A DNA stretch of 12,675 bases from Candidatus Zhuqueibacterota bacterium (GTDB taxonomy: Bacteria; SM23-31), in the NCBI GenBank assembly GCA_022562855.1, contig JADFON010000023.1, positions 1 through 12,675 of the forward strand. Reading direction: 5' to 3'. The notes beneath the pieces are model-generated. The model made no database searches and was not told the origin of the DNA. It was given only the letters and a program-made list of their open reading frames with translations. The translations under genes were made by a program, and so were the position numbers. Below, piece after piece: positions 3,546 to 11,899 of the stretch. The stretch's first letter is position 1; each line of letters starts with the position of its first letter.

Positions 3546-5345
3546 ATGTCGCCACAAGGAAATGGGTTTAAGGAAATAGAAACAAGTTTGTACGGCACGG
3601 AACCAACAATAACAGAAACAGATATTGCGGAAAAATCTGTTGATGAGATCATCAAGGAAAAACTCGAAGAAAGGTCCCGAGAACTCACCGAGGAACACCT
3701 CGGAGGTTCCCCCGGACAATTCTTTAAACCTGAAGAACGACCGTTTCTAAAATCCGAACGTGCGCATACCACACTACTTTTTGGCGGGCTTACATGGAAA
3801 CACGAAAAACTTATACAGGCTTCGCTGCAAAACCTGGGATATCTCTGCCAACCGATAACAAATCCCGATGTCCGCGCCTTCCAGATTGGCAAAGAATATG
3901 GAAATAACGGACAGTGTAACCCGACCTATTTTACCGTTGGTAATCTTGTTCAATATTTGCAGGAACTGGAAAAAACAGGTCTTACAAAAAAAGAGATCAC
4001 TGAAAATTATATATTTTTAACTGCCGGTGCATGTGGTCCCTGCCGTTTTGGGATGTATGAAGCTGAATACAGGCTTGCTTTGACAAATTCCGGTTTTGGC
4101 GATTTTCGAGTCATCCTTTTTCAACAGTCCGGCGGTCTTGAGCAATCCGACGTTGAGGTCGGACTGGAATTGAACCTGGATTTTTTCCTCGGTCTTATCA
4201 ATGCACTGAATATGGGCGACATTATCAATGAGGTTGGTTTTCAAATTCGTCCTTTTGAAGTAAATCCCGGTGAAACGGACAGGGTTCTTGCGGAATCGAT
4301 GGAATTCCTTTACGAGACGTTGAAAAGTCAGCCTGCTTTCAAATTGAAGGAAAGCAAGTGGAAGTTCCTCGATTATATACCCGGTATCAAATCAAAATCC
4401 GATTATATCGGCAAATTTTTGAACCAGTTATACGGCGAATCACTCGTTGACGCATTTAAGGAGGTGCGGGACCGGTTCGACAAAATTCCTGTTGACAAAA
4501 CTAAGGTCAAACCGGTCGTTAAGATCACCGGTGAATTCTGGGCGCAGACGACCGAGGGAGACGGAAATTTCAATATGTTCAAATTTCTTGAAAAAGAAGG
4601 CGCGCAGGTGCTGGTCGAGCCTATCGGGACCTGGATAATGTATATGATCCATCAGCACAAACAATCGGTAAAAGACCATAAAGGAATCAAGGATATCGAC
4701 GTGGTTCCTGCATGGTGGGACCTGAAAGCAAGGTGGAAGATCAAGAAATCATATTTCATGAGTATTATGAATATGAACATTGCCGAGAAAATATTTGGCA
4801 GAGAATATGACAAATTACGGAATGCGCTTGGTGGAACGGCGCACGCGCTTATCGATCAATACGAACTCCAGCGAATCGCCCATCCGTATTATAACTCCCG
4901 GGCGGGTGGAGGCGAAGGTCACCTCGAAGTAGCGAAGAATATTTATTACATGAATAAAAATATTGCTCATATGGTCTTGTCGTTAAAACCATTTGGATGT
5001 ATGCCAAGCACCCAAAGCGATGGTGTGCAGTCTGCCGTAAATTCTAAATTTAAAGATATGTTATATCTTCCTGTCGAAACCTCCGGTGAAGGTGAGATCA
5101 ATGCGCACAGCCGTGTACAAATGACACTCGGAGAGGCACGCATGAAGGCTAGAAAAGAATTCAAGGACGCCCTTGACAAAACAGGATATACTGTTGAGCA
5201 AATCCAGGAATTTGCAGCAGGACATAAAGACCTTTCACGTCCGATGTACCATGTTCCCGAGACTAAAGGCATTGTCGGTACAGCCGCAAATTTTGTACTT
5301 CACGCCGCTGATTTGATGAAAGGACAGAACGGGAGGATGAATTAA
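3546..5345 (+). CDS. HgdB/COG3581-like 2-hydroxyacyl-CoA dehydratase-type reductase subunit
   Basis: This 599-aa protein resembles the part that is usually the C-terminal section (COG3581) of very large BadF/HgdB fusion proteins. The first 75 residues or so are charged and helical, like a linker. The conserved core starts near LLFGGLTWKHEK (77-88). Likely iron-sulfur ligands are C124 (NGQCNPTYF), C163 and C166 (ACGPCRFGMYE) and C485 (PFGCMPSTQSDG). In the HgdB/BcrB/double-cubane superfamily such cysteines hold a [4Fe-4S] or [8Fe-9S] cluster that is reduced by an ATP-dependent activase. The gene overlaps the activase gene by one base (TAATG at 5343-5347), so the two products are probably made in step and work as a complex. 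The substrate is not evident: there is no neighbouring CoA-transferase or fermentation gene, so an acyl-CoA role should not be assumed. Confidence 0.85.
   Translation: MSPQGNGFKEIETSLYGTEPTITETDIAEKSVDEIIKEKLEERSRELTEEHLGGSPGQFFKPEERPFLKSERAHTTLLFGGLTWKHEKLIQASLQNLGYLCQPITNPDVRAFQIGKEYGNNGQCNPTYFTVGNLVQYLQELEKTGLTKKEITENYIFLTAGACGPCRFGMYEAEYRLALTNSGFGDFRVILFQQSGGLEQSDVEVGLELNLDFFLGLINALNMGDIINEVGFQIRPFEVNPGETDRVLAESMEFLYETLKSQPAFKLKESKWKFLDYIPGIKSKSDYIGKFLNQLYGESLVDAFKEVRDRFDKIPVDKTKVKPVVKITGEFWAQTTEGDGNFNMFKFLEKEGAQVLVEPIGTWIMYMIHQHKQSVKDHKGIKDIDVVPAWWDLKARWKIKKSYFMSIMNMNIAEKIFGREYDKLRNALGGTAHALIDQYELQRIAHPYYNSRAGGGEGHLEVAKNIYYMNKNIAHMVLSLKPFGCMPSTQSDGVQSAVNSKFKDMLYLPVETSGEGEINAHSRVQMTLGEARMKARKEFKDALDKTGYTVEQIQEFAAGHKDLSRPMYHVPETKGIVGTAANFVLHAADLMKGQNGRMN
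5331..5336 (+). promoter_or_regulatory. Ribosome binding site inside the upstream gene (translational coupling)
   Basis: GGGAGG lies within the last codons of the reductase-type gene, eight bases before the ATG at 5345. With the TAATG stop-start overlap it supports translational coupling of the two genes. Confidence 0.75.
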
Positions 5346-8300
5346 TGCACGACGACCGTTCACTGTTTATCGGTATGGATGTCGGCTCGACCACCGTAAA
5401 AGCGGTTGTGGTCGACCCCAAAACCGACGAAATCCTATGGCGGGATTACCAGCGGCACGAGACAAAACAGCCTGAAGTAACGATAGAATACCTGAAGCGT
5501 ATCCAAAAAGACCTTGATTGCGGATCCGAAAAATTCCGTTTGTTTATAACAGGAAGCGGCGGGTCGAACATGGTTGACCATCTGGGCGCTAAATTCGTGC
5601 AGGAAGTGACTGCGGTATCTCTTGCCGTTGAGAAAATGCACCCTGAGGTCGGGTCGGTCATCGAGCTTGGCGGTCAGGATGCGAAAATCATTATTTTTAA
5701 AGAAGACCCGGAAACAGGAAAGAAGAAAAAAATCCCGAGCATGAACGATAAATGCGCCGGCGGTACTGGCGCCGTTATCGATAAGATCAATGCAAAGTTG
5801 AAAATTCCACCGGATAAATTGTGTAACCAGGGATATAACGGAATCAGGCTTCACCCGGTGGCAGGTAAATGCGGCGTTTTTGCAGAAACCGACATAAACG
5901 GTCTGCAAAAAGAGGGGATACCCAACGACGAGTTGATGGCATCGTTGTTCGAATCCATTATTCAGCAGAACCTTGCGGTCTTGACACGTGGACACACGTT
6001 GCGCCCGCTTGTAATTCTTCTCGGCGGTCCTAATACATTTATTAAAGGGATGCTTGAATGCTGGCAAGAAAACATCCCGATCATCTGGAAAGAACGCCAT
6101 ACGGAATTACCTGAAGGCGTCGATCCGAAAGACCTGATAATTGTCCCGAAAAATGCCGAGTATTTTGCAGCGATCGGCGCGGTGGAATTTGGCAAAGAAG
6201 AAGATCCGGATACCGGATTCTACAAGGGAGTCGAAGATCTTGTTTATTATATTGAAGTAGGACGAATCGAAGAAAAAGCAAAAGCCGGCGCTGTAGGTTT
6301 GACCAAAGATGAAGCTGAATTGATTGCCTTCAAAGAAAAATATAAGACAAAGAAATTTGTTCCGAAGACTTTTAAGCCGGGAGAAATTGTTGAAGCATTT
6401 GTCGGTGTTGACGGTGGTTCCACTTCGACAAAAGCGGTGCTTATCGACAAAGAAAAAAACCTTATTATGAAGGCGTATCAGCTTTCCAAGGGTAACCCGA
6501 TTGAAGATACAATAGATATGTTCCAGCAGCTTCGCGACGGGATCGAATCCCAGGGAGCAAAACTTGAAATTCTCGGAGTAGGCACAACCGGATACGCCAA
6601 AGACATCCTCAAAGACACCATCTCCGCGGATGTAGGTTTAGTTGAAACCGTCGCGCATATGCAGGCATCCAAACATTATTATAAGGATGTTGATGTAATC
6701 TGTGACGTAGGCGGTCAGGATATAAAGATAATTATCCTGAAGAACGGTCAGGTAAAGGACTTTAAACTCAATACCCAGTGTTCTGCCGGGAACGGTTACT
6801 TTTTGCAAAACACAGCCGAGTCGTTTGGATTTAAAGTGGAAGATTTCGCCGATCTTGCCTTCAAGGCGACCAGCATGCCGGAATTTGGCTATGGATGCGC
6901 TGTTTTTATGCAATCGGACATTGTTAATTTTCAGCGTCAGGGTTGGAAACCGGAAGAGATCATGGCTGGTCTTGCCAACGTGCTCCCCAAAAATATATGG
7001 CTCTACGTATCACAAATTCCCAATCTTGCAAAACTCGGAAAAAATTTCGTATTGCAGGGCGGCACACAGTATAACTTAGCGGCAGTCAAAGCCCAGGTTG
7101 ATTTTATCGAATCAAGATTTGTGGGTAAAGGTGAGAAACCGAACATCATTGTTCATGAACATACCGGTGAAAGCGGCGCCATCGGGGCGGGACTTGAAGC
7201 GATTCGAATGTATGAAAACGGACACCGGACGAGTTTTATCGGTCTCGATGCGGTTGCAAATATTCAATTCAAAACCACACGAAATGAAGATACCCGCTGC
7301 TATTTCTGCAAAAACAAATGCCTCCGCACCTTTATCGATGTAAAAACCACGAATGCCGAACACAGCGATCCACTGACTTTTGACTTTAAACTGGGCCCCG
7401 AAGCCGTTAAAGCAGGCAGAATAAGAGACAACATCGGGGATAACGGTAAAAACGGCAAGAAAGAAGAAAACAAAAGCGCCTTTAAGTCCAAAGTTCCTCT
7501 TGAAGCAAATACTAAACGGCTGATCATCGCTACCTGCGAGAAGGGAACGGTCGAGAATGTCCAGGACATGCGGGGAATAAAAGGTGAATTAGAAGAAATA
7601 ATGAAGGCAAATCCCGATCTTCTTCAACAGAGCGCCTCGTATGTATTCAAGTCTTTTAAACCGGAAATTATTGTCGAAGAACAGCGCAGGACATTTACTC
7701 CCAAGCAGAAAAGAAGAAAAAAACTGGTTGAAAACCGCAAGAATATCCGGATCGGAATTCCTCGTCTTTTGAATATGTATTCAATGAATCCTTTATTCAG
7801 CGCATACTTTGAAAGCCTCGGCATAAAACCGGTTAATATACTATACTCTGAATTTACATCCGAAGAAATGTTTAAAGAAGGCGCAAAACGCGGTTCGATC
7901 GATCCCTGTTTCCCAAGTAAAGTGGGTATTCCGCATGTTCATAACCTGCTTTACAAAGTTCATCCAAAGAAGAAGCTCGATATAATCTTTTTCCCGATGA
8001 TCGACGATCTGCCTTCGCCGCTTGTCGGTACCACGGGGCAACGGTCTTGCCCAACGATAAGCGCAACTCCCGAAGCTGTTAAGGCTGCCTTTACCAAAGA
8101 GGGTAATCTTTTTGATGAATTGGGAGTAAAATATATAAACACCTTTGTTAATCCTCTCCAGCCGCTTTTATTTGCGCGTCAGATGTTTAACGACTTTGCC
8201 GACATATTCGGGCTAACGGAAAGTGAAAATAAAAAAGCGGTCGACGCCGGCTACAAAGCGCTCGACGAGTACAAGGAGACACTGCAAAACGTTTCACGCG

Positions 8301-8938
8301 ACCTGTTGAAGCAACTTGTGGATGAAGACAAAATTGGAATTGTAGTTCTCGGCAGACCATATCACAACGATCCGGGTATTAACCATGAAATAATGGTTGA
8401 GTTTCAAAAGCTTGGGTTTCCGATTTTTACCCAGGAAGCCTTGCCTATTGACAAGGAAACACTTTACCCGTTATTTAAAGAAGACCTCGAGAAAGGTATC
8501 ATCGACGACCCGCTTGAAATTAAGGACGTCTGGAAAAATGCCTACAGTGAGAATACGAATTACAAAATATGGGCGGCAAAGTTCACCGCCCGCCATCCGA
8601 ATCTTGTGGCAATGGAAATGTCAAATTTCAAGTGCGGTCACGACGCCCCTATATATTCGGTAATAGAAGACATCATCGAAAATAGCGGAACTCCTTATTT
8701 TTCGTTTAAGGATATTGACGAAAACAAACCCACCGGAGCAATAAAAATCAGGGTGGAAACAATTTCGTATTTCCTGAAGAGATACCGCGAAAAATTGGTC
8801 CAGAAACGGAAAAAGAGAGATTTGGTTGCCAAGGAATTAAGAGAGTATGAAGCTCAACTGAGAAGGGAACTTCAATCTTCGGGACCGGCATCCGGACAAA
8901 GTGTGTCTGTGGAAGATAAAGAAATTATTGCATATTGA
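5345..8938 (+). CDS. Tandem BadF/BcrA-type activase ATPase fused to DUF2229/COG3580 domain
   Basis: This 1197-aa cytoplasmic protein is predicted to hydrolyse ATP to push low-potential electrons onto a partner cluster. ASKHA ATPase 1 (about 6-285) has the phosphate loop MDVGSTTVKA, IELGGQDAKI and cluster cysteines C137 (NDKCAGGTG) and C176 (GKCGVFAETD). ASKHA 2 (about 350-625) repeats these: VDGGSTSTKA, CDVGGQDIKI, C479 (NTQCSAGNG) and C518 (GYGCAVFMQSD). A CX2CX3C motif follows (C652, C655, C659), then a charged linker (about 695-800) and a DUF2229/COG3580 domain (about 801-1130) with C855 (IDPCFPSK), C902 (QRSCPTI) and C1097 (NFKCGHDAP). The tail (about 1140-1197) is a basic, charged helix. 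Family members of 1400 aa or more usually add a COG3581 section at this end; here it is the preceding gene. A terminator follows. The overall family is clear; the reaction is unknown. Confidence 0.88.
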   Translation: MHDDRSLFIGMDVGSTTVKAVVVDPKTDEILWRDYQRHETKQPEVTIEYLKRIQKDLDCGSEKFRLFITGSGGSNMVDHLGAKFVQEVTAVSLAVEKMHPEVGSVIELGGQDAKIIIFKEDPETGKKKKIPSMNDKCAGGTGAVIDKINAKLKIPPDKLCNQGYNGIRLHPVAGKCGVFAETDINGLQKEGIPNDELMASLFESIIQQNLAVLTRGHTLRPLVILLGGPNTFIKGMLECWQENIPIIWKERHTELPEGVDPKDLIIVPKNAEYFAAIGAVEFGKEEDPDTGFYKGVEDLVYYIEVGRIEEKAKAGAVGLTKDEAELIAFKEKYKTKKFVPKTFKPGEIVEAFVGVDGGSTSTKAVLIDKEKNLIMKAYQLSKGNPIEDTIDMFQQLRDGIESQGAKLEILGVGTTGYAKDILKDTISADVGLVETVAHMQASKHYYKDVDVICDVGGQDIKIIILKNGQVKDFKLNTQCSAGNGYFLQNTAESFGFKVEDFADLAFKATSMPEFGYGCAVFMQSDIVNFQRQGWKPEEIMAGLANVLPKNIWLYVSQIPNLAKLGKNFVLQGGTQYNLAAVKAQVDFIESRFVGKGEKPNIIVHEHTGESGAIGAGLEAIRMYENGHRTSFIGLDAVANIQFKTTRNEDTRCYFCKNKCLRTFIDVKTTNAEHSDPLTFDFKLGPEAVKAGRIRDNIGDNGKNGKKEENKSAFKSKVPLEANTKRLIIATCEKGTVENVQDMRGIKGELEEIMKANPDLLQQSASYVFKSFKPEIIVEEQRRTFTPKQKRRKKLVENRKNIRIGIPRLLNMYSMNPLFSAYFESLGIKPVNILYSEFTSEEMFKEGAKRGSIDPCFPSKVGIPHVHNLLYKVHPKKKLDIIFFPMIDDLPSPLVGTTGQRSCPTISATPEAVKAAFTKEGNLFDELGVKYINTFVNPLQPLLFARQMFNDFADIFGLTESENKKAVDAGYKALDEYKETLQNVSRDLLKQLVDEDKIGIVVLGRPYHNDPGINHEIMVEFQKLGFPIFTQEALPIDKETLYPLFKEDLEKGIIDDPLEIKDVWKNAYSENTNYKIWAAKFTARHPNLVAMEMSNFKCGHDAPIYSVIEDIIENSGTPYFSFKDIDENKPTGAIKIRVETISYFLKRYREKLVQKRKKRDLVAKELREYEAQLRRELQSSGPASGQSVSVEDKEIIAY

Positions 8939-8985: not shown

Positions 8986-9023
8986 GCCACGTTTCGCGAA
9001 AATCGGATCGTGGCTTTCTTTTT
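8986..9023 (+). terminator. Hairpin terminator after the activase gene
   Basis: GCCACG (8986-8991) pairs with CGTGGC (9009-9014), followed at once by a T-rich tract (TTTCTTTTTGTT). The loop contains a small palindrome, TTTCGCGAAA (8992-9001). The position, 48 bases after the stop codon at 8938, fits an intrinsic terminator separating the two-gene unit from the small gene that follows. Confidence 0.7.
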
Positions 9024-9055
9024 GTTAGAAGAAATTCAACAAGAAAGATTAGGGC

Positions 9056-9337
9056 ATGGCGCAAGTATCAGATAGAGTAATGTTTGAGATTTACCGGGAG
9101 GCGGGATTAAACGAAAAATTCCGTGTTGTCTATTACACTGAACTGCATGACCACAACAAGGAATTTGAAATAAACCGTGCTTTGAGCGGTACCCATGTTT
9201 ATGAAGGATTTTATAGAACTGCTAAAATTGCAGACGCAAAAAAAGAAATAGACAATATTCTCGAAAGAATGAACGATGGCGAAAAAATCGACAACGAAAA
9301 AATCGATGAGATTCTCATGCCGTTCAAACCCGTATGA
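9056..9337 (+). CDS. Small hypothetical protein (93 aa)
   Basis: I do not recognise this gene. The product is soluble-looking, with no signal peptide, membrane segment or cysteine. The first half has aromatic and beta-like stretches (FRVVYYTELHDHNKEFEIN) and GTHVYEGFYR; the second half is charged and helical (about 58-88, rich in Lys, Glu, Asp and Ile). The ATG at 9056 has only a weak purine run upstream. The composition and codon use match the neighbours, and no other frame on either strand offers a better candidate, so I consider it real. A terminator-like hairpin precedes it, so it is probably a separate transcript. It converges on the dipeptidase gene, with 37 bases between the stops. Confidence 0.65.
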   Translation: MAQVSDRVMFEIYREAGLNEKFRVVYYTELHDHNKEFEINRALSGTHVYEGFYRTAKIADAKKEIDNILERMNDGEKIDNEKIDEILMPFKPV

Positions 9338-9374: not shown

Positions 9375-10520
9375 TTACCTGCTTATCTCCTGCCATATTC
9401 TAAAAAAATTACCACCCATAATTTTGCCGACTTCGTCATCAGTGTAGCCTTGTGCAATAAGCCCTCCGGTTAACGCCCGGAAGTTCGCCTCGTCACCGAA
9501 TTCCGGGATATACGACATTCCCCGTAAATCGCTTGCAATACCAACGTGGTCTACTCCTACAAGATTTTTAACATAATCAATATGCTTTACAAATCCTTCC
9601 AGCGATTCGAGACTTGCGGTGGGCCATATTCCAACCATCCCACCCTTACCTGCAATAGCAATTATCTCCTCGTCGGTCAGATACCGGTCACCTTCATAAA
9701 GGGCTTTTACCCCGGTGTGGCTGAATATTACCGGGTCATCCGAAATTTCCAGTGCATCCATTATCGTTTGCGTATTAGAATGTGCAAGATCAACGATAAT
9801 CCCAAGCCTGTTACATTCCCTCACTACCTCTTTCCCAAATTCGGTTAACCCTCCCTCCTCATACGGTGGAGTCTGATTAAATCCCAACAGGTTGTCCCTG
9901 AAATGAAGTAATTGAAGCAGGCGAAGACCTTTCTGATGCAGTTCACGCAGGTTGTCGATACTGCCTTCAAGTCCGTCGGCTCCTTCCAGCGCAGCTAATA
10001 ACGAGAGCTTTCCCTGTTTTTTTGCTTCGAGCACAGATTCAGGAGTCAATGCAAGGACAGCATCGCCCGATTCAACGGTTTTTAGAATTCTCGCAAAACG
10101 GTCAAGTGTAAAGGCATACCCCTCCCCCGGTTCGAGCTCGTATGCATCATTACCCCTCAACCGGCGAACCTGGGTTCCATCCCGGTCTGTGTAACCTCCC
10201 TGGTAAGCCGCATCGGAACTGACATTGGCAACGGCGAGATCGATTTGTCCCCGTAAATAGGTATCAATTTCTTCTTTTGAAATCTGCTCCACCGAGCTGC
10301 GGTGAAACCTGCTTGGATGGGCATGAATGTCCGCAAACACATACTTTTCATGTATTATTTCCATATCTCCGGTTGAAACCGGTTCCTGGGCGCTGCACAT
10401 GATAAAATGGCTAAAGCCGAGACAAAGCAGTATTACCATTACCGGAATTTTACCGCCATCAAAACATGACGATCTTTTACCGGTTGTTATACAGGAAATC
10501 TTATTTTTATTACTAAGCAT
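9375..10520 (-). CDS. Exported M19-family (membrane/renal-type) dipeptidase
   Basis: This 381-aa zinc peptidase should cleave dipeptides outside the cytoplasm; M19 enzymes often accept a D-residue at the C-terminal side. The N-terminus has a basic stretch and a hydrophobic segment (about 26-42) ending in MCSAQE, consistent with export by a signal peptide. The Cys before SAQ is not in a good lipobox. M19 landmarks are H66 and H68 (DIHAHPS), the bridging E179 (LAALEGADG), H247 (VDLAHSNT), H268 (IFSHTG) and D331 (VGIASDLRG). The first metal motif is usually HxD, so His68 is a departure. The length is usual for the family. GGGAGG lies seven bases before the ATG, fixing the start. It is divergent from the alanine racemase-like gene, which suggests a shared role in D-amino acid or dipeptide turnover. 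Confidence 0.9.
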   Translation of the reverse strand: MLSNKNKISCITTGKRSSCFDGGKIPVMVILLCLGFSHFIMCSAQEPVSTGDMEIIHEKYVFADIHAHPSRFHRSSVEQISKEEIDTYLRGQIDLAVANVSSDAAYQGGYTDRDGTQVRRLRGNDAYELEPGEGYAFTLDRFARILKTVESGDAVLALTPESVLEAKKQGKLSLLAALEGADGLEGSIDNLRELHQKGLRLLQLLHFRDNLLGFNQTPPYEEGGLTEFGKEVVRECNRLGIIVDLAHSNTQTIMDALEISDDPVIFSHTGVKALYEGDRYLTDEEIIAIAGKGGMVGIWPTASLESLEGFVKHIDYVKNLVGVDHVGIASDLRGMSYIPEFGDEANFRALTGGLIAQGYTDDEVGKIMGGNFFRIWQEISR

Positions 10521-10606: not shown

Positions 10607-10653
10607 TTTATATAAATTATAAATATAAATAATTAAATAAAAGAAAAAAATGT

Positions 10654-10657
10654 GGAG
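10654..10657 (+). promoter_or_regulatory. Ribosome binding site fixing the racemase start at 10667
   Basis: GGAG is followed after nine bases by the ATG at 10667. A GTG at 10652 is in frame but would overlap this site and place five extra residues before the twin-arginine leader, so the ATG is preferred. Confidence 0.65.
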
Positions 10658-10666
10658 AAATTACCG

Positions 10667-11899
10667 ATGAAGAACCTTGACCGGAGAAATTTTTTTAAAT
10701 TAGGCGGCGCGGCGGCTATCGGAGTGTCATCTTTGAACCCGTCTAAAGGATTAAAAGCGAGCCTTCTTCCCTTTTCTTCCAACCCGGTGCAATCCGGAAA
10801 TTCAGCCGAACCATGGCTTGACATTAGCTTAGAAAATATCGGCTGGAATCTTGACCGGATTCGAAACTTGGTGAAAAACCTTCCCGTTATGGCTGTAATC
10901 AAGGCAAACGGCTACGGTCACGGAGTCGTGGAAATGGGGAAATATCTCGAAAAACGAAACACTCGCTTTCTTGCTGTCGGCAAATTTCAGGAAGCGTTCG
11001 ACCTTCGTGAAAGCGGAGTAAAAACTCCTGTCCTGAATTTCGGTTCGTTTTCAGGTGAAGAAGCGGAAGAACTTGTAAAAAATAACATATCCCAGTCCGT
11101 ATATACGGACGATTATATCGTGCTTGCAGAATCAGCCCGCAGATTAGACACTACCGCCAAAGTGCATATTAAAGTGGACACAGGGCTTGGAAGGATTGGC
11201 GTCCACTACCGCGATGCACTTCAATTTATCGAAAAAGTTGCAGAAACACGGGGCATAACTATCGAGGGGATTTTCACCCCTTTTACTGAAGACGACGAAT
11301 ATGACCGGGAGCAGTTGAAACGGTTTCTTGAAGTTTGTGAATCAGCTGCAGGCAAGGGAATTCCGGTCGGTATTCGTCATGCCGCCAGCAGTGCGGGAAT
11401 CCTCTCCTTCCCGGATGGATATCTCGATATGGTCCGTCCCGGCATAATGATTTACGGGGAATACCCTTCACTCAAAGAATATGAGGCGCGAAAAGTAGAC
11501 CTGCGCCCGGCAATGTCGCTGAAAACCAGGGTGATGTATGTAAAAACGCTTCGCCCGGGCGAATCTATTTCGTATCACAGGAATTATGTTGCGGAAAAAG
11601 AAACCAAAGTCGCCACACTTTCCATTGGATATTCCGATGGTTATCCGTACCATGTCGCGGGTAAAGCTGATGCGCTCATTCATGGAAGAAGATGGAAATC
11701 GATTGCGCTGATTACGTCCAATCATATGACTGTCGATATCACCGGAGCAGAGAATATAAAGGTCGGTGATGAAGCGGTGCTTTTTGGAAAACAGGGCAAT
11801 GGCGAGATTTCAGCTGAGGAGGTCGCGGCATGGGCAGACACATCGGTCTACAAGATCCTTATCTGGATGAATCCCCTCTTAAAAAGAAATTTTGTATAA
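10667..11899 (+). CDS. Alanine racemase-like PLP enzyme with twin-arginine (Tat) leader
   Basis: This 410-aa fold-type III PLP enzyme should interconvert L- and D-alanine or other amino acids. The N-terminus has a Tat motif, DRRNFFK (5-11), followed by a weakly hydrophobic stretch (12-22), so the folded, PLP-loaded enzyme is probably exported. The barrel starts near residue 50 (WLDISLENIGWNLDRI). Lys79 in AVIKANGYGHG binds PLP; K169 and R176 lie in KVDTGLGRIG; Tyr303 in GESISYHRNY is in the place of the second catalytic base. Two usual motifs are altered: HxANS reads HAASS (238-242) and the CMDQ region reads TSNHM (about 350-354). Cytoplasmic Alr makes D-Ala for the wall; an exported form may be a broad-range racemase or a D-Ala source for extracellular use. 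It is divergent from an M19 dipeptidase. Confidence 0.88.
   Translation: MKNLDRRNFFKLGGAAAIGVSSLNPSKGLKASLLPFSSNPVQSGNSAEPWLDISLENIGWNLDRIRNLVKNLPVMAVIKANGYGHGVVEMGKYLEKRNTRFLAVGKFQEAFDLRESGVKTPVLNFGSFSGEEAEELVKNNISQSVYTDDYIVLAESARRLDTTAKVHIKVDTGLGRIGVHYRDALQFIEKVAETRGITIEGIFTPFTEDDEYDREQLKRFLEVCESAAGKGIPVGIRHAASSAGILSFPDGYLDMVRPGIMIYGEYPSLKEYEARKVDLRPAMSLKTRVMYVKTLRPGESISYHRNYVAEKETKVATLSIGYSDGYPYHVAGKADALIHGRRWKSIALITSNHMTVDITGAENIKVGDEAVLFGKQGNGEISAEEVAAWADTSVYKILIWMNPLLKRNFV

Follow-up and report, generated by a model that had tools for sequence, protein, structure and literature searches.

What kind of enzyme is made by two overlapping genes that together carry the parts of one large activase/dehydratase-like protein, split apart and placed in reversed order? 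The window analysed here is a stretch of 12,675 nucleotides from a Candidatus Zhuqueibacterota bacterium (contig JADFON010000023.1), in which the pair and its domains lie as follows.

3546 to 5345, plus strand: gene A, a PlsR-like (COG3581) subunit with HAD fold; 599 aa, from the open reading frame and alignments
5345 to 8938, plus strand: gene B, PlsA-like, ASKHA-ASKHA-CX2CX3C-DUF2229; 1197 aa
5366 to 6199, plus strand: first activase (BcrAD_BadFG/ASKHA) domain of B, by HMM match; Cys137 and Cys176
6398 to 7207, plus strand: second activase (ASKHA) domain of B, by HMM match; Cys479 and Cys518
7298 to 7321, plus strand: CX2CX3C linker, the motif CYFCKNKC at residues 652-659 of B
7745 to 8779, plus strand: DUF2229 (COG3580) HAD-like domain of B, by HMM match; Cys855, Cys902 and Cys1097

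Gene A runs from an ATG at 3546 to a TAA at 5343-5345 and gene B from an ATG at 5345 to a stop at 8938, so that a single base is shared in a TAATG overlap. A Shine-Dalgarno-like GGGAGG lies immediately 5′ of the ATG of B. Pfam recognises two BcrAD_BadFG domains (PF01869, E 7e-71) and DUF2229 (E 2.5e-45) in B. No match to Pfam or NCBIfam was found for A; it aligns to the C-terminal ~400 aa of ~1400-aa fused proteins with 12 invariant columns, and iterated HMMs agree. A first-pass annotation had named these same parts, the COG3581 gene placed first with its TAATG overlap, and fused relatives with the COG3581 section last. The Pfam and HMM matches, alignments and cysteines bear this out, and fused relatives of ~1340-1530 aa with a C-terminal COG3581 part occur even in the phylum of the window. 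It had also remarked on the absence of 2-hydroxyacyl-CoA fermentation genes around the pair, and we likewise found none in the window, nor among the conserved neighbour clusters of relatives.

A search for the closest relatives, weighted to near kin by design, yielded 80 loci, mostly from Acidobacteria and also from Zixibacteria, Latescibacterota, Marinimicrobia, Dadabacteria, Poribacteria, Ignavibacteria and others. A is followed by B on one strand in 75/80, whilst the other 5 lack B in the locus DNA examined. The reversed split order is therefore the rule amongst close relatives, an outcome that the first-pass annotation had itself named as counting against its reading. With both frames found in this arrangement in 75/80, A/B is a genuine two-gene form, and we rejected a frameshifted, broken or mis-assembled fused gene. 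The window also encodes a LytTR two-component pair, an ABC ATPase, an M19 dipeptidase and an alanine racemase, and holds no lipid gene adjoining the pair. Neither the LytTR pair upstream nor the dipeptidase and racemase genes on the flank are conserved neighbours in relatives, and a shared operon with them was rejected. The alanine racemase (10652-11899, plus strand) may be exported, to judge by a twin-arginine-like stretch at its N-terminus, DRRNFFKLGGAAAIG, and the M19 membrane dipeptidase gene (9375-10520, minus strand) lies beside it. One common neighbour cluster (c2) was set aside, as it looks like antisense frames in GC-rich DNA, a gene-calling artefact.

The conserved cysteines and the fold of A narrow the question of chemistry. 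The three cysteines in DUF2229 and three in the PlsR part (Cys124, Cys166 and Cys485 of A, common to the fused proteins) are present in 69/69 aligned rows, whether fused, usual-order (PlsA part first) or reversed. The cysteine pair of the second activase domain is likewise kept in 69/69 and that of the first in 64/69. An extra Cys163 (ACGPC) in A is specific to the clade, occurring in 26/27 reversed rows. The CX2CX3C motif was rejected as a special feature of the pair because 115/116 relatives, fused and split alike, carry it. Dehydratases have two cysteines per activase and three per HAD-half, and the catalytic subunit of DCCP holds a six-cysteine [8Fe-9S] site. The cysteines of A and B match the dehydratase layout and the BzdO-type [4Fe-4S] site, which uses three cysteines (PMC11971306). 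The DCCP set (cf. PMC11971306) is absent: DUF2229 has three invariant cysteines and A three, plus the clade-specific one. These are fewer than the cysteines that a double-cubane site requires.

An AlphaFold2 model of A (pLDDT 80) gave 3o3n_B (Z 8.2), 3o3m_B (8.1), 7yzm_A (7.2), 6eno (7.0) and 9gai_B (6.9) as best structural matches; these values are modest and inform on fold, not function. The top seven chains are all HAD/DCCP/BCR proteins, namely subunits of 2-hydroxyisocaproyl-CoA dehydratase, DCCP and methylbenzoyl-CoA reductase, with Z 6.9-8.2 over 273-285 residues (within residues 68-541 of A). The next unrelated match reaches Z 5.8 over 120 residues, and unrelated matches mostly cover 106-170. 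Foldseek with the same model returned DCCP at E 1.3e-3, which is weak taken alone. Sequence-profile searches of A, DUF2229 and the small downstream protein c5 against PDB sequences found nothing significant, so that A is placed by fold search only. Taken together, the predicted fold of A and the 3+3 conserved cysteines match the benzoyl-CoA reductase/2-hydroxyacyl-CoA dehydratase family. The earlier proposal of a two-component ATP-driven reductase, homologous to the fused megaproteins and reversed in order relative to them, is in this respect supported.

That proposal had regarded the substrate as unknown, which does not hold for the family. In the literature it appears as PlsA/PlsR and Ger, enzymes reported to act on the glycerol esters of membrane lipids and to yield vinyl or alkyl ethers by reduction (PMC12838417, PMC13274423, PMC11150832). 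Plasmalogen synthase is described as a BCR/HAD family member, encoded by two genes, plsA-plsR, in C. perfringens and by one fused gene in E. faecalis, L. cremoris and B. longum (PMC12838417; the family is also described in PMC9702350). PlsA homologues with two PF01869 domains from Thermotogota and D. alkenivorans are reported as validated Ger (PMC13274423), converting the ester to an alkyl ether at sn-1, with lesser amounts at both positions (PMC13274423, PMC11150832). The window pair has the PF01869 domains, DUF2229 with a separate COG3581/PlsR chain, and the Fe-S cysteines of this family. On architecture and literature, PlsR is the counterpart of A and PlsA that of B; the A/B split is a variant of a known enzyme kind whose two-gene form has already been described.

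We consider it probable, on this architecture and literature, that A and B are a split and swapped ester-to-ether reductase of PlsA/PlsR-Ger type, to which c5 is likely accessory. Under this model A and B would be the two chains of one enzyme, and the TAATG overlap may ensure that they are made in step. The two activase domains of B would hold one cluster between them, presumably [4Fe-4S]. Hydrolysis of ATP would then drive a low-potential electron from the activases to a putative heterodimer of the DUF2229 domain of B and chain A, each of which would bind an iron-sulfur cluster through its three cysteines. The substrate of this heterodimer would be a membrane phospholipid, whose acyl-glycerol ester carbonyl it would reduce to give an ether, either saturated alkyl or vinyl. 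The genes have been split and swapped (plsR-like first) in this clade, probably by one old rearrangement, and the c5 product may act as an accessory or third subunit.

The c5 gene, absent from the first-pass annotation, starts 118 bases downstream of B:

8986 to 9024, plus strand: terminator-like hairpin and T-run between B and c5, from the sequence
9056 to 9337, plus strand: c5, a 93-aa conserved protein of no Pfam family that co-occurs with close reversed pairs

Given the hairpin, c5 may be attenuated or separately transcribed. In some twelve reversed-pair loci, spread over several phyla, the gene immediately downstream of B is a relative of c5. Amongst 386 diverse genomes c5 was found in 4, and these are the same 4 whose reversed pairs are closest. 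It is present in 44/50 genomes with close reversed pairs, often unlinked, and in 5/199 Acidobacteriota, all five with a reversed pair. Across 585 sampled genomes it never occurred without one; among the more distant reversed pairs most lack it, as does genome G144. Fisher values for this co-occurrence are tiny, but the test assumes independent genomes, which these are not. Where c5 is unlinked, the genes around it (20 genomes inspected) did not point to lipids. The c5 model (pLDDT 88) is predicted as mixed alpha/beta; a fold search returned no convincing match (best Z 3.2), and searches against Pfam and PHROGs returned nothing. We suggest that c5 is likely an accessory or third subunit.

A second companion of the pair is Tes. 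A homologue encoded near the pair in relatives matches PDB 7tol (E 1e-63) and scores 324 bits against NCBIfam Tes, under the cut-off of 450. Four loci have Tes adjoining the pair, and two of these read A-B-c5-Tes. Strong Tes matches were found in 6/386 genomes, 5 of which carry the long split clade. In a chosen set of 80 genomes, long-type Tes occurs in 41/46 with reversed pairs compared with 8/34 others, and a shorter Tes in 11/14 with other PlsA/PlsR types only. These counts, like those for c5, are not phylogenetically independent, and co-occurrence is not function. Outside Acidobacteriota, reversed-pair genomes often lack Tes, and the genome of the window (80% complete) has no clear Tes (best 72.7 bits against the cut-off of 450). 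Solibacter usitatus, a producer of brGDGTs, is reported to make them even at 21% oxygen, and its PlsAR homologues have been proposed to carry out the ether step together with Tes (Halamka et al., PMC10087280). Solibacteraceae relatives carry the reversed pair, and the co-occurrence of Tes with this pair fits that proposal.

Two alternatives concern the substrate and the product. A/B could be a divergent HAD/BCR-type ATP-driven reductase of a non-lipid substrate, such as a CoA ester or, as in DCCP, a small molecule. A change of substrate is conceivable because the reversed/long-split clade is far from the fused forms, both in branch length (1.97 in the tree described below) and in identity (A ~20-24%, B 24-31%). 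The extra Cys163 and N-terminal extension of A, the genome of the window being without Tes and the lack of an adjoining lipid gene in the window also point this way. However, all the cysteines and the CX2CX3C linker are retained, and Tes both co-occurs with and adjoins the pair in relatives, whilst the three invariant cysteines of A, rather than the larger double-cubane set, argue against DCCP-like chemistry. We regard a non-lipid substrate as unlikely.

Less plausible still is a strict PlsA/PlsR plasmalogen (vinyl-ether) synthase as opposed to an alkyl-ether-forming Ger. The two-protein split recalls plsA-plsR of C. perfringens, and Ger and PlsA are stated to be inseparable by sequence alone (PMC13274423). 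Against this, B has two activation domains, which the same source ties to alkyl-ether producers (PMC13274423), and the co-occurrence of Tes points to saturated membrane-spanning lipids.

How the reversed order arose was addressed through the tabulation of fused and split forms and trees of the COG3581 and DUF2229 parts that the first-pass annotation had suggested; this gave a single origin for the reversed order and several switches between split and fused. A PlsR-type domain was found in 130/386 genomes of the wider draw. By frame length, counted by eye, roughly 80 of the 386 carry fused forms and about 35 split forms. The fused form is found in 4/5 other genomes of the small phylum to which the window belongs; the genome of the window has the split pair only. 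Split loci are of three kinds: short in usual order, long in usual order, and long reversed. In a tree of 69 loci and 979 columns (second activase, DUF2229 and PlsR), built entirely from experimentally uncharacterised genome sequences, the 27 reversed pairs lie on one side of one branch with support 100. Beside them are eight long splits in usual order, the joint clade of 35 rows being joined to the fused forms by the long branch. The PlsR-only tree also recovers the reversed pairs as one clade (support 100). The DUF2229-only tree needs two order changes, of which well-supported branches force one only. The reversed gene order is a clade marker. Because the reversed pairs form a single clade and their nearest split relatives have the usual order, the simplest reading would be one old swap followed by wide inheritance or transfer. 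Of the two origins offered by the first-pass annotation, rearrangement is favoured over an ancestral order. That the reversed order is ancestral, with the fused protein derived from the reversed pair, is very improbable: split forms are indeed spread across many lineages, but all reversed pairs sit in one clade, and in every other split form, the two nearest groups included, the PlsA part leads, as in the fused proteins.

Several variant loci were observed in the course of this survey. Nine acidobacterial loci (L014, L034, L042, L043, L046, L051, L053, L059 and L076) have a glyoxalase/VOC-family gene (median 163 aa) between A and B, and in L147 (genome G228) a radical SAM/SPASM-type gene (3745-5169, minus strand) separates the PlsR-like and PlsA-like genes. 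A gene for an LMF1 (lipase-maturation-factor-like) membrane protein (cluster c3) is near the pair in nine acidobacterial loci, including L020 and L080. The Acidobacteriota G399, G440, G508 and G556 have two split systems, a long reversed and a short usual-order pair (loci L190 and L191; reversed loci L187-L189), and several Acidobacteriota with doubled systems have both a long and a short Tes type as well. In L119, L120, L157 and L163, compact clusters combine a single-domain activase with several DUF2229/COG3581-like genes, each separate; this may be a multi-gene form without fusion, which could help to root the family. Lastly, in G015, G163 and G302 (L113, L134 and L137) a long-type PlsR-like gene was seen for which several kb of surrounding DNA hold no PlsA-like gene; the partner may be encoded elsewhere.

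These data matter beyond this locus. The brGDGTs are worldwide proxies for past temperature, and the issue is how their ether bonds form in Acidobacteriota, a pathway called unclear in the accounts of it given in recent papers. The swapped PlsR-PlsA pair, c5 and long-type Tes form a candidate gene set for acidobacterial ether lipids. This set, and a protein of no known family that tracks the pair, are the most valuable outcomes of this work. S. usitatus makes these lipids at 21% oxygen although the PlsA/PlsR enzyme family is described as oxygen-sensitive (PMC12838417), and a clade-specific extra protein is therefore worth testing. We speculate, with considerable doubt, that the swapped pair and c5 could be a distinct three-part glycerol ester reductase. 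Together with long-type Tes it would serve Acidobacteriota and other lineages, even in air, in the synthesis of ether-linked lipids that span the membrane, brGDGTs among them; c5 might then be a subunit proper to this enzyme, with a role in, for instance, assembly, electron entry or protection from oxygen.

Amongst known systems, the 2-hydroxyacyl-CoA dehydratases, class I benzoyl-CoA reductases and DCCP share with the window pair the ASKHA-fold activase with two cysteines per domain and the HAD-like fold (A matching 3o3n, 9gai and 6eno). The pair differs from them in having no CoA-ester pathway genes and three invariant cysteines in each HAD-like part. The PlsAR homologues of S. usitatus (PMC10087280) are similar in being proposed to form the ether bonds of brGDGTs with Tes in an acidobacterium; the likeness is one of description, the published account as available to us giving no gene order, clade or small partner. 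PlsA-PlsR of C. perfringens is likewise two genes, the second being the C-terminal HAD-like part of the fused proteins, and shares the BCR/HAD-family Fe-S chemistry and ATP-activase domains. In the window, by contrast, the order is PlsR-like before PlsA-like, with overlapping genes, the chains are longer (A 599 aa and B 1197 aa compared with short-type split frames of roughly 400-520 and 965-1145 aa), A has the extra Cys163, and the 93-aa c5 co-occurs. Ger of Thermotoga maritima and Desulfatibacillum alkenivorans is described with the same two PF01869, DUF2229 and COG3581 parts (PMC13274423, PMC11150832), and the fused relatives examined here have all invariant cysteines in common with the window pair. 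However, whereas Ger of D. alkenivorans is reported as a single fused chain of ~150-160 kDa, the window pair belongs to a separate, long-branched clade in which the genes are split and swapped.
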